NCBI GenBank assembly: GCA_028678715.1
Contig: JAJRCY010000051.1
Coordinates: 1 to 6,575 of the forward strand
Direction: 5' to 3'
Length of the DNA stretch: 6,575 nt
Source: Methanomicrobiales archaeon
Lineage (GTDB): Archaea > Halobacteriota > Methanomicrobia > Methanomicrobiales > JACTUA01
Each line of letters opens with the position of its first letter. Within the stretch, counting starts at the first letter, position 1. Below, piece by piece: positions 3,715-6,575 of this stretch. The position numbers and the translations under genes were made by a program. The notes beneath the pieces are model-generated. The model worked only from the letters and a program-made list of their open reading frames with translations, was not told the DNA's origin and did no database searches.

Positions 3715-3907
3715 AGATCGAAAGAGGTTAACGGGAGGAATCTCCGATCAGTATCCGGTAAGGATCGCGGATGAATTGGTGCCCGATATCTCCCGGCAGG
3801 ACCCCTCCGATGGGGATCACGCGGTCTCCCCTTATGGCGGAACCGGCGTCCGGAGAGTATCATACCGGGGATACCACAGAAAATTCATCTCAGTTTATAG
3901 GATCATT

Positions 3908-3917
3908 TCTATATACT
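3908..3917 (+). promoter_or_regulatory. TATA box of the secreted protein gene
   Basis: TCTATATACT is a good archaeal TATA box. The expected transcription start, about 25 bases on, falls near 3936-3940, inside the dyad at 3934-3950 and 25-30 bases before ATG 3965. Between the lipoprotein start and this box (3685-3907) I see no gene. Confidence 0.6.
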
Positions 3918-3933
3918 AAAACCAATTATACCA

Positions 3934-3950
3934 ATGTCCATTCTGGACAT
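3934..3950. promoter_or_regulatory. Dyad at the predicted transcription start, possible operator
   Basis: ATGTCCA (3934-3940) and TGGACAT (3944-3950) are perfect inverted arms around TTC. Placed at or just after the predicted transcription start, the dyad could bind a repressor or form a hairpin at the 5' end of the message. Confidence 0.45.
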
Positions 3951-3964
3951 GGAGTTGAGGCAGC

Positions 3965-4624
3965 ATGAAAATGAGATGGTCAATGGGGATTGCTCTGGCA
4001 ACCGTGCTGGTGGCAGCCCTTCTGGTTTCCGGTGTGGCGGCGGTTGGTACCGGTAACGGTGCGATCAGCGGGAAGCACTACAACCTGAACCTCATCGGGG
4101 TGAAGAAAGCCGACAAGCTCCCCAATGACTTCAACAGCGGGGCACGGATCTTCGTGAACCTTGTCGGGAAGAGCAAGATCTATCTGACCCTGGGGACCAC
4201 CTTCGACGTCATTGATGCAGATGCCACCGATGGCAGGGCAGAGTTCATGCTTCCGAGACCGGAGAACGAGTATGATCCTGACACCGGAGCGTATGTCGGT
4301 CCAGGCGCATATCGGGTATTCATCCGCGAGCTCGGCCAGCCCAGTGACCGGAAGGCGTATCTCAAAACCTGCGCAGAGTACATGGAGAACGGGGAGGTCG
4401 TATCCTACTGTTCAACGGGGGATGATATTGTTGTCCTCCAGAGGAAGAAGGGGCAATCGCTTTTCGACGATGTCACCCGCGAGCTGACGACTGTCGTTAT
4501 TGACGGTGTCCGTGTGGACATCTTCGATGATGAATTTGCGGACTACCTCTGGGAATACGACAACGAAGGGCTGAAGCACGTCCAGCTCAGGTTCTACCTG
4601 CTGGATGAAATTGAGGCAGACTAA
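3965..4624 (+). CDS. Secreted protein of unknown function, methanogen-associated family
   Basis: The 219-residue product starts with a cleavable signal peptide: basic MKMRW, a hydrophobic core (about 8-22), then VSGVAA, with cleavage likely after A26. The mature part is acidic. It carries a pattern I recall from secreted hypothetical proteins of methanogens and some bacteria: YNLNLIGV (39-46), RIFVNLVGKSKIYLTLG (61-77), DVIDADATDGRAEFMLPRP (81-99) and YRVFIRELGQP (116-126). C136 and C149 could form a disulfide. It has no transmembrane helix beyond the signal and no enzyme motif. ATG 3965 follows GGAG (3951-3954) and GAGG (3957-3960). It stands alone between its own promoter and T-run terminator, divergent from the Cache lipoprotein. 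No function can be assigned. Confidence 0.8.
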   Translation: MKMRWSMGIALATVLVAALLVSGVAAVGTGNGAISGKHYNLNLIGVKKADKLPNDFNSGARIFVNLVGKSKIYLTLGTTFDVIDADATDGRAEFMLPRPENEYDPDTGAYVGPGAYRVFIRELGQPSDRKAYLKTCAEYMENGEVVSYCSTGDDIVVLQRKKGQSLFDDVTRELTTVVIDGVRVDIFDDEFADYLWEYDNEGLKHVQLRFYLLDEIEAD

Positions 4625-4638
4625 TTTTTTCCTTTTTT
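4625..4638 (+). terminator. Double T-run terminator of the secreted protein gene
   Basis: Directly after the TAA stop come six T, two C and six T. Such T-tracts without a hairpin are the usual archaeal transcription terminators. Confidence 0.7.
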
Positions 4639-4747
4639 CCCCTGAATGGTATTCACACGGGGAATGCGTCCCATTCGACGGACAGAAATCCCGGGACACA
4701 AAATACGCCCTGGATGTCCGGTTCGCTCGCCAGAAGAAGTCGGTCGC

Positions 4748-4792
4748 GATGGGCTCGAGGAGAGTCGAACTCCTGACCTCCGCCGTGTGAAG
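4748..4792 (-). repeat. tRNA-Val 3'-half fragment, distal copy of a 45-bp direct repeat (attachment-site-like)
   Basis: Read on the minus strand, this is the anticodon loop TTCACAC (anticodon CAC), stem half GGCGG, variable AGGTC, T arm AGGAG-TTCGACT-CTCCT, acceptor half CGAGCCC and discriminator A. The 5' half of a tRNA is missing: upstream there is no partner for the acceptor or anticodon stem. It matches 5487-5531 in 44 of 45 positions, differing in one T-loop base. Identity ends exactly at the 5' edge of the anticodon loop, a common crossover point of tyrosine integrases in tRNA genes. It is therefore best read as the far end of an integrated segment. Confidence 0.75.
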
Positions 4793-4842
4793 ATCCCTGC
4801 CCGTCTATCGAAGGGGTCCGCCCACCCTCGGCCGCCCTGTTA

Positions 4843-4873
4843 CAAAGAAAGGGATGATGAGAGACGACATCCC
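4843..4873 (-). terminator. Hairpin and T-rich tail after the cupin gene
   Basis: On the minus strand GGGATG (4873-4868) pairs with CATCCC (4856-4851) around an 11-base loop. It is followed by TTTCTTTG (4850-4843), nine bases beyond the cupin stop codon. Confidence 0.5.
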
Positions 4874-4881
4874 CGGAAAGA

Positions 4882-5286
4882 TCAGGCGGCGGGGACGGGG
4901 ACCACCAGGAACGTGGAGTACCCGTCACTGATGTTCCTCGTCACGTGACCCTTGCCCGAGGTATCTTCCAGCAGGACGAGATCCCCGGGCCCGAACCGCC
5001 TGACCGTCCCGTCTGTCGTCTCCATCTCCACCGCACCCGACATGAGGGCCAGGAACTGCCGGGTGGGACACGGGTGCAGTTCGCCGATCCAGCCGGGCTC
5101 AAACGTATAGAAGCGATACTTTGACGCAGGGCCATCCGCTGAGACGTAGAACGGGGCAGCGGGCGGCGCTGCCTGCGCGAGACCCTGTTCGACCGTGACC
5201 GTATCAAAGTGAGATTCACCCTGGATGTCCGAATAAATTCTGTGATACGTCACCAGGGTGAGCGTGGGGGAGACTTTCTTTGCCAT
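4882..5286 (-). CDS. Cupin-domain protein
   Basis: This is a 134-residue single-domain cupin (beta-barrel) protein, probably cytoplasmic. Motif 1 is G66-WIGEL-H71-P-C73-PTR-Q77 to G84. It has the usual spacing, but cysteine replaces the second histidine and glutamine replaces the glutamate. Motif 2 is GPGDLVLLEDTSGKGHVTRN, keeping G101-D102, H114 and N118. With half of the classical metal ligands changed, metal binding and catalysis are uncertain. I recall a subgroup with HPxPxRQ at this place that is annotated only as cupin. ATG 5286 is chosen because GGAGGT lies seven bases upstream; an in-frame ATG at 5343 has no such site. It is the only gene between the two tRNA-Val repeats, so it may have arrived as cargo. 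Confidence 0.85.
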   Translation of the reverse strand: MAKKVSPTLTLVTYHRIYSDIQGESHFDTVTVEQGLAQAAPPAAPFYVSADGPASKYRFYTFEPGWIGELHPCPTRQFLALMSGAVEMETTDGTVRRFGPGDLVLLEDTSGKGHVTRNISDGYSTFLVVPVPAA

Positions 5287-5353
5287 GTGGTTTACCTCCG
5301 TGCTATCAACGGGCCGGGGGTGTGACCCGACAGGATTACTCACTGAGCAGGGA

Positions 5354-5361
5354 AGAATAAA
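5354..5361 (-). promoter_or_regulatory. Candidate TATA box of the cupin gene
   Basis: TTTATTCT on the minus strand would place the transcription start near 5333, giving a leader of about 47 bases that contains the GGAGGT site. Confidence 0.4.
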
Positions 5362-5486
5362 TGTTCCGACATGCCTTCAGCCAGGGGTGGTCCCGGGTTT
5401 TTCCGGTTATTGAAGGAAAGTTGTGCACCCGTTTCAGGGACCTTCACCGCATCCAGGCCGATTCGCATCTTGTCTGGCAAAACCGG

Positions 5487-5531
5487 GATGGGCTCGAGGA
5501 GATTCGAACTCCTGACCTCCGCCGTGTGAAG
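5487..5531 (-). repeat. Proximal copy of the 45-bp tRNA-Val direct repeat
   Basis: This is the partner of 4748-4792, with one mismatch and the same orientation. It is the 3' half of the tRNA-like gene at 5489-5566. Together the two copies bracket about 700 bases holding the cupin gene. Confidence 0.75.
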
Positions 5532-5566
5532 GCGACGTAACGGGCAGCGTTTCCAAAAGCGAGCCC
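5489..5566 (-). tRNA. tRNA-Val(CAC)-like gene with an abnormal D arm, possibly a pseudogene
   Basis: On the minus strand GGGCTCG (5566-5560) pairs fully with CGAGCCC (5496-5490), followed by discriminator A. The anticodon stem TCGCC/GGCGG (one T-G pair) encloses TTCACAC with anticodon CAC. The T arm AGGAG-TTCGAAT-CTCCT is canonical. CCA is not encoded. The part between the acceptor and anticodon stems is 24 bases and lacks a normal D stem; only AACG/CGTT can pair, with a five-base loop. Total length is 78 bases against the usual 74-76. It may be a damaged or recombined tRNA-Val gene left by integration, or a divergent working one. The anticodon loop and 3' half are certain; function is not. 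Confidence 0.55.
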
Positions 5567-5602
5567 AGGATAAGCGTTTCTGGAACTCTATTAGGATGGG
5601 GG

Positions 5603-6078: not shown

Positions 6079-6575
6079 TTGGACATCCCACGTATCTTCA
6101 ACATTACCGAAAGTGCTCACCGCATCCATAACCCGTTCACACCAGAAAAACTCGCCACCCTCGGCGCAGCGTTGCGCCTGGAATCGGGGACTCGTGTGCT
6201 CGATCTCGGCAGCGGTTCGGGCGAGATGCTGTGCACCTGGGCACACGATTACGGAATCACCGGCGTCGGCATCGACATGAGCCAGTTATTCACCGAGCAA
6301 GCGAAACTACGCGCTGAAGAACTCGGAGTCGCCGATCGTGTCGAGTTCATCCACGGCGACGCTGTCGGCTACGTCGCCGACGAAAAGGTCGATGTGGCAG
6401 CCTGTCTCGGTGCCACGTGGATCGGTGGGGGAGTCGTCGGCACCATCAAGCTTCTGGCGAAGAGTCTCCGCTCCGATGGAATCATCCTCATCGGCGAGCC
6501 CTACTGGCTGCAGTTACCACCGACGGAAGACGTTGCCAAGGGATGCTTTGCCAATTCTATCTCCGACTTTCTCAT
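6079..6575 (+). CDS. Class I SAM-dependent methyltransferase (3' end outside window)
   Basis: The first 165 residues of a Rossmann-fold methyltransferase are visible; the frame is open at the right edge, and relatives I recall are about 250 residues. Motif I is VLDLGSGSGE (40-49), which binds S-adenosylmethionine. D66 in GVGIDMS ends beta strand 2 and should hold the ribose. FIHGDA (90-95) is the adenine-side motif, and GIILIGEPYW (134-143) marks beta strand 5. The N-terminus IPRIFNITESAHRIHNPFTP is typical of a bacterial group that I recall from enterobacterial and other mobile DNA, annotated only as methyltransferase. The substrate is unknown. It starts about 50 bases past the IS remnant, and its codon use (GCG, CGT, CTC, TCG mixed with TTA) differs from the methanogen genes to the left, supporting transfer from bacteria. 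Confidence 0.85.
   Translation, partial: MDIPRIFNITESAHRIHNPFTPEKLATLGAALRLESGTRVLDLGSGSGEMLCTWAHDYGITGVGIDMSQLFTEQAKLRAEELGVADRVEFIHGDAVGYVADEKVDVAACLGATWIGGGVVGTIKLLAKSLRSDGIILIGEPYWLQLPPTEDVAKGCFANSISDFL

Follow-up and report, generated by a model that had tools for sequence, protein, structure and literature searches.

The question raised by this locus is how a single cupin gene came to lie between two pieces of a valine tRNA gene. The window, by which we mean the whole stretch of 6,575 nucleotides analysed, is the entire contig C70 of a Methanomicrobiales MAG (1.15 Mb in 212 contigs, 56.5% complete), and the first-pass annotation had read the arrangement as the result of insertion into the tRNA gene by a tyrosine integrase. 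Our preferred answer, to which we assign a probability of roughly 0.68, is that a 739-base unit was inserted at tRNA-Val(CAC) by site-specific recombination, probably through a tyrosine integrase supplied in trans, and that it is one of several stacked units. Recombination would take place across the 45-bp 3' half of the tRNA; if the strands were exchanged at or near the anticodon loop, the tRNA would stay intact and its former 3' half would end up at the distal side of the insert. Several units could stack downstream of one tRNA in this manner, as we suppose happened here, and the cupin has likely crossed between methanogen orders, often to the same tRNA.

The direct repeats occupy positions 4745-4792 and 5484-5531, with the tRNA copies on the minus strand, and sequence comparison showed them to be identical at 46 of 48 positions. 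Within them the distal core (copy U, 4748..4792) and the proximal core (copy D, 5487..5531), both on the minus strand, agree at 44 of 45 positions, the same count that the first-pass annotation had given. A BLAST comparison of the copy at 5484-5573 with the other copy gave an E value of 4e-17, which rules out a chance repeat. Both repeats are 3' halves of tRNA-Val(CAC) that span the anticodon loop to the 3' end, so the anticodon-loop boundary proposed earlier was correct. The proximal copy is identical to the tRNA-Val(CAC) gene of a genome of the same genus (G002) over 52 of 52 bases (100%), from 5487 to 5538. The distal copy is a bare 3' half with a single mismatch to the proximal one. The fuller copy, at 5484-5577, keeps the 5' acceptor strand and has an abnormal D-arm. 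Neither copy forms the complete cloverleaf by which tRNA finders recognize a functional tRNA-Val gene: ARAGORN called no tRNA in the window and Rfam gave none at E values up to 1, which rules out an intact tRNA at either copy. The sole call made by ARAGORN when introns were allowed, a tRNA-Tyr with a 349-base intron starting at 4750, is implausible, and a match to U3 snoRNA at 3890-4025, weak and under the gathering score (E 0.36), was taken as noise. A search of the source assembly for other copies of the core, which the first-pass annotation had recommended, found none beyond the two in the window, so that no intact tRNA-Val of this genome was recovered from the assembly, which is 56.5% complete.

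The repeats enclose 691 bases that contain one convincing gene and no integrase, in agreement with the earlier description of an integrase-free, one-gene segment of about 700 bases. The gene (4882..5286, minus strand) encodes a cupin of 134 aa and has an ATG start behind a GGAGGT motif. Its match to PF07883 (E 2e-6) scores only slightly over the family cut-off, and a 12-row alignment also supports the gene; the match to structure 3es1 is weak, and that to a mandelonitrile lyase model is far under the cut-off. A TATA-like box noted by eye at 5354..5364 (minus strand) is the predicted promoter, and in the nine loci inspected a similar T-rich box precedes the cupin. The 739-base unit is thus laid out as core, left arm, cupin with its predicted promoter, right arm and core. 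The left arm (5429..5486, minus strand) directly follows the 3' end of the core and is kept in G058, in two copies, as well as in G006 and L073. Out of sample, the left-arm profile matched after tRNA-Val in four loci (E 0.0011, 0.0066, 0.11 and 0.52) and had one match away from a core (L080). The right arm (4793..4881, minus strand) extends from the cupin stop to the distal core, and its profile comprises the window, L070, L098, L073, L081, G043, L084 and G051; the cupin-side part also occurs in G002, L080 and L093, there without a core. Both arms are conserved across families. G058 has another one-gene unit, with a SpoIIAA-like gene, that carries the same left arm. The right end of a different insert, in L078, resembles the cupin right arm just before its core, where none of 2000 mononucleotide shuffles scored as high and the profile E value was only 0.32. 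The arm profile had no match at E values up to 1 in the viral contigs L152-L155, and a second genome with an identical 739-base unit was not found.

The first-pass annotation had suggested looking in relatives for a one-repeat empty site, as against an ancient fixed arrangement in which none would exist. Such a site was found in the same-genus genome G002, where the stretch 219-1068 of contig C110 is colinear with window 3935-4792 at 79% identity over 865 columns. The tRNA-Val of G002, which lies directly after tRNA-Gly(TCC), joins directly to the flank found beyond the distal copy of the window, and the match stops at the anticodon loop, at window position 4792. This flank (3935..4744), which in G002 lies next to tRNA-Val, holds a 219-aa gene (3965-4624, plus strand) that has no match in Pfam, PHROG or NCBIfam. 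The end of the G002 contig (C110, also L062, positions 1-29) repeats 29 bases of the tRNA-Gly/tRNA-Val junction and may be an assembly edge or a second copy. The same empty site is occupied in L078 by a different insert of 1.75 kb, which carries MscS-like and DUF6141 genes and has a degenerate core at its end, and a short insert of about 0.4 kb lies at the same site in L084. At the same tRNA, G028 shows an exact empty site where G053 carries an insert of 4.2 kb. For L098, whose gene past the distal core is the one found beside tRNA-Val in G027 and G012, there is an empty site at the level of genes. Comparison of G034 with G014 gave no exact empty site. Together with the conserved arms and the crossing of the cupin between orders described below, these empty sites make insertion of the cupin unit at the tRNA gene by site-specific recombination well supported.

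The fuller tRNA copy does come first in the tRNA (minus) direction, as had been stated, but the insertion did not take place in this copy, whose degenerate 5' half also occurs in G058 and G017. This tRNA-like half (5538..5583, minus strand), which we call the type-2 right arm, was made into a profile from the window, G058 and G017 and run on 113 loci at E values up to 2; it gave one extra match, L161, which is the same site as G017. We infer that positions 5538-5583 are not a tRNA but the terminus of an adjacent unit situated toward the tRNA. Because this 5' half is both degenerate and shared, the stack to which the cupin unit belongs probably comprises two units or more, with the native tRNA-Val lying off the contig. 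For that reason the stacking in the window is read from its remaining parts, and it is in relatives that two or three copies can be seen in a row. Three copies follow one another in G058, with the SpoIIAA-like unit between two of them, and L073 has a right arm, a core and a left arm in succession. In L069, L078 and L084 the cupin and the 219-aa gene stand in the reverse order relative to the window. Within the order, 10 of 232 genomes carry two or more exact cores; the matches listed include six pairs that share a contig, and in each of these both cores are on the same strand.

To find the agent of insertion we searched for tyrosine integrases (PF00589) under 57 genome handles (14, 17, 20 and 6), with at least three genomes entered under two handles. 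There was no PF00589 integrase in any of the 14 bracketed segments with comparable coordinates (G011, G016, G023, G026, G034, G037, G047, G051, G053, G058, G109, G125, G130 and L098), of which three have weak distal cores (G026, E 0.002; G051, E 0.1; G037, E 2e-4). A serine recombinase (PF00239) was likewise absent from 13 of these segments (17 handles searched, G037 left out), and G051 has a weak PF00239 match about 10 kb past its distal core. The PF00589 matches of G066 and G078 with coordinates that might have fitted the cupin contigs, and one in the genome of L078, lie on other contigs and were discarded as island integrases. In G004 an integrase lies 19 kb downstream of tRNA-Val, and no second convincing core was found in that downstream stretch. 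Two near-identical and presumably archaeal viral contigs (L153 and L155) carry a tRNA-Val core about 0.4 kb from a PF00589 integrase. The lack of an integrase in the bracketed segments, taken with this viral core beside an integrase, suggests a recombinase acting in trans as the likeliest agent. The window unit has the make-up of a cis-mobilizable element, with one gene and no recombinase between attachment cores at 4748-4792 and 5487-5531. The duplicated stretch, bounded by the anticodon loop and the 3' end of the tRNA, also has the geometry of archaeal integrase sites: the pT26-2 plasmids are described as integrating at sites that run from the anticodon to the tRNA 3' end, some of them in tRNA-Val (PMC6972569), and are unlike the unit studied here in carrying their own integrase. 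Exchange of the host tRNA 3' half for that of the element would leave T-stem mismatches wherever the two differ. In G130 the T-stem of the current tRNA reads GGGCG and that of the distal copy CTGAG, and the single copy of the sister genome G131 also reads CTGAG. Among 18 distal cores compared with the current tRNA, 3 differ in the T-stem (in G130, in L098 and in one of the two copies of G109), whereas 13 have the same T-stem, which counts against the model, and 2 have decayed beyond comparison.

The same segments bear on a different history, in which a larger element with an integrase had the cupin as its last gene and an internal deletion left the cupin between the attachment copies, so that the unit never moved in its small form. 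The cupin is indeed the last gene before the distal core in the longer inserts of L098 (9.7 kb) and G051 (8.2 kb), and decay does occur, since the L098 cupin matches only from residue 42 and the L093 cupin has a stop. We consider such erosion possible but somewhat doubtful, because both arms are still present within the 739 bases, because a one-gene unit in G058 and the short insert in L084 occur at the same site, and because no integrase was found in the 14 bracketed segments, several of which have fresh cores, such as those of G125 with 49 of 49 positions identical.

A broader interpretation, which we offer tentatively and hold to be rather unlikely, is that of an integron-like system on an essential tRNA, in which cassettes would be captured, stacked and reordered beside tRNA-Val by viral or host integrases. 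The cassettes would be the cupin and, in G058, the SpoIIAA-like gene, each with a tRNA-Val 3' half as core, shared arms and its own promoter, and their capture could swap the T-arm of the tRNA. Integrons and integrase-less attC clusters have been reported in archaea (PMC9668308), and their cassettes, as described there, are likewise small one-gene units that require a recombinase in trans. The window unit is unlike them in that its boundary is a tRNA-Val 3' half and not an attC site, and in that it carries a predicted promoter for its gene. In three Methanoregula-like MAGs (L071:707-6412, L072:1588-7532 and L075:819-10523) the same cupin does occupy an attC-like repeat array. It is flanked there by copies of a 75-base repeat, which reappears between genes and keeps a single orientation on each contig. 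This repeat has 14, 14 and 9 matches in the respective genomes and none in five other genomes searched. The arrangement resembles an array of the integron type with no integrase close by; a derivation of its repeat from tRNA-Val received no support from comparison.

Returning to site-specific insertion, we considered whether DNA of a relative could have recombined through the tRNA and its flanks without a dedicated enzyme. The conserved tRNA does offer a short homology, and some flanks are 77-91% alike between relatives. We nevertheless hold homologous recombination to be improbable: the breaks fall at the anticodon loop or inside the core and not in the flanks, the arms next to the core are kept between families whose other flanks differ, and the core itself is only about 45 bases long.

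The genomic surroundings of the cupin were compared in relatives found at 43 loci by a scan of named genomes, 34 of these loci being in methanogen records. Some of these entries are dependent (L069 and L084 come from one MAG, as do L099, L101 and L111) or are the same locus (L082 is G026, L076 is G002, L083 is G001, and L086 lies within G130). The 34 methanogen loci and five others were used for a strand test, in which similar flank lengths were searched on both sides of the cupin of these 39 loci and a match to the tRNA-Val half of at least 25 bits was counted as strong. All 17 strong matches, which came from 15 loci and 14 genomes, are on the strand of the cupin and none is on the opposite strand; 15 are upstream of the cupin and 2 lie after its stop, at +90 and +97. 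Of 36 testable loci, 8 have a core remnant 82-135 bases past the cupin stop (each with p <= 0.014 against 4000 random segments), and none was seen in the other 28; this test did not include L078 (20 bases) and L101 (none). The conserved right arm stands before these remnants. The remnant in L070 shares a 17-base T-arm with a neighbouring tRNA-Thr, which makes its parent tRNA ambiguous. In two genomes of the same genus as the window (G001 and G002) the cupin is on contigs without any tRNA-Val match. These two genomes and the repeat array of the three MAGs indicate that tRNA-Val is not the only address of the cupin. On contig C87 of G001 (L054, 1507-1911) it lies behind what appears by eye to be the end of a NusA-like gene, and the contig also carries rpoB.

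We then compared the identity of the cupin with that of RpoB for 25 of 29 handles (G000, G075 and G077 had no match and G072 was in pieces), of which four were Methanosarcinales genomes (Methanosarcinaceae/Methanolobus) and 21 were Methanomicrobiales. The four Methanosarcinales genomes form their own RpoB cluster. The median RpoB identity drops from 83% within Methanomicrobiales (210 pairs) to 66% between the two orders (84 pairs), whereas the median cupin identity is 76% within Methanomicrobiales and 75% between the orders for the same numbers of pairs. Over all 300 pairs the two identities are barely correlated (Spearman 0.13). The two highest cupin identities between orders (85 and 84%) rest on the L098 row with its 92 residues, and full-length pairs reach up to 84%. 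In two Methanosarcinales loci (L074 and L077) about 5 kb separate the cupin from the tRNA-Val of the host itself, which lies upstream on the same strand. Since cupin identity is equal across and within orders while RpoB identity falls, the gene appears to travel; it has probably been passed between distant methanogens, in many cases settling next to the same tRNA. Joint inheritance of the cupin and the tRNA pieces from a common ancestor, with partial loss, is extremely improbable. In its favour, 15 loci from several families and two orders have tRNA-Val, or its half, upstream of the cupin. Against it, the cupin is present in 16 of 61 genomes including that of the window (10 of them strong matches), its identity scarcely tracks RpoB, and the window differs from L069, L078 and L084 in the relative order of the cupin and the 219-aa gene; the empty sites (G002; G053/G028) and the identities between orders contradict it.

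Several elements of this arrangement are already known, as far as the sources cited here describe them. In Dehalococcoides, tandem genomic islands at ssrA, 15 of them without an integration module, are stacked downstream of one RNA gene in one orientation and bounded by repeats of its 3' end, and integrase-less islands there were proposed to be cis-mobilizable elements (PMC3146451). Our case is similar in these respects and differs in that many Dehalococcoides islands carry a serine-recombinase module, where we found none in the segments examined, and in that our host is archaeal, the RNA gene used is tRNA-Val and the same cargo gene turns up in different orders. The additive flexible genomic islands at tRNA-Lys of Methylophilaceae, of 330 bp to 42 kb, also have repeated tRNA 3' ends and variable size and content (PMC10872708). 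The islands at tRNA-Val share with this type the empty sites in relatives (G002, G028 for G053, and G027/G012 for L098) and the direct repeats of the tRNA 3' end, downstream and in one orientation, although the native tRNA of the window itself lies off the contig; an integration module, expected in some islands of such a set, did not appear, as no recombinase was detected in the bracketed segments tested. Conserved arms and a recurrent one-gene unit set the present case apart from the islands described in that paper. Archaeal tRNA gene fragments left by integration have been treated as annotation pitfalls (PMC9897764); the partial copies here resemble such scars and delimit shared units. In comparison with what these papers report, the differences are a size of one gene with both arms retained, a cargo gene common to two orders and the lack of a recombinase in the segments examined. 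As far as the literature was searched, no paper linked this cupin, tRNA-Val and methanogen islands. If the units do move in trans, single genes could spread between methanogen orders without a mobility gene of their own, and searches based on integrases would miss them. T-stem mismatches between a tRNA and its distal copy may in turn allow past integrations to be read from sequence.

The tRNA-Val site also offers an exact place to seek accessory and defence genes in methanogens. Inserts with other cargo were observed at tRNA-Val in L116:17579-18409, L122:15938-19071, L061:10656-10982 and L200:4394-9835. Their genes include one for a radical SAM protein that is viperin-like by eye, HepT/nucleotidyltransferase genes, zeta-type genes, a PemK-like gene and what appears by eye to be a type I restriction system, and judged from this predicted cargo the site may be a defence hotspot. 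In a Methanolobus MAG (L093:4219-5169) a gene that is MscS-like by eye follows the cupin with the stop at a distance of about 2.3 kb and recalls the MscS-like cargo at tRNA-Val in L078. A methyltransferase gene at window 6079-6573 is cut by the contig end and has a relative of 85% identity in G044:C19, 2-3 kb from the cupin, in an order and orientation that differ from those of the window. Finally, in G011 (L117:577-5949) a 3' half stands 5.3 kb downstream of a tRNA-Val(GAC) gene and shares its strand, which suggests that the other isoacceptor may serve as a site too.
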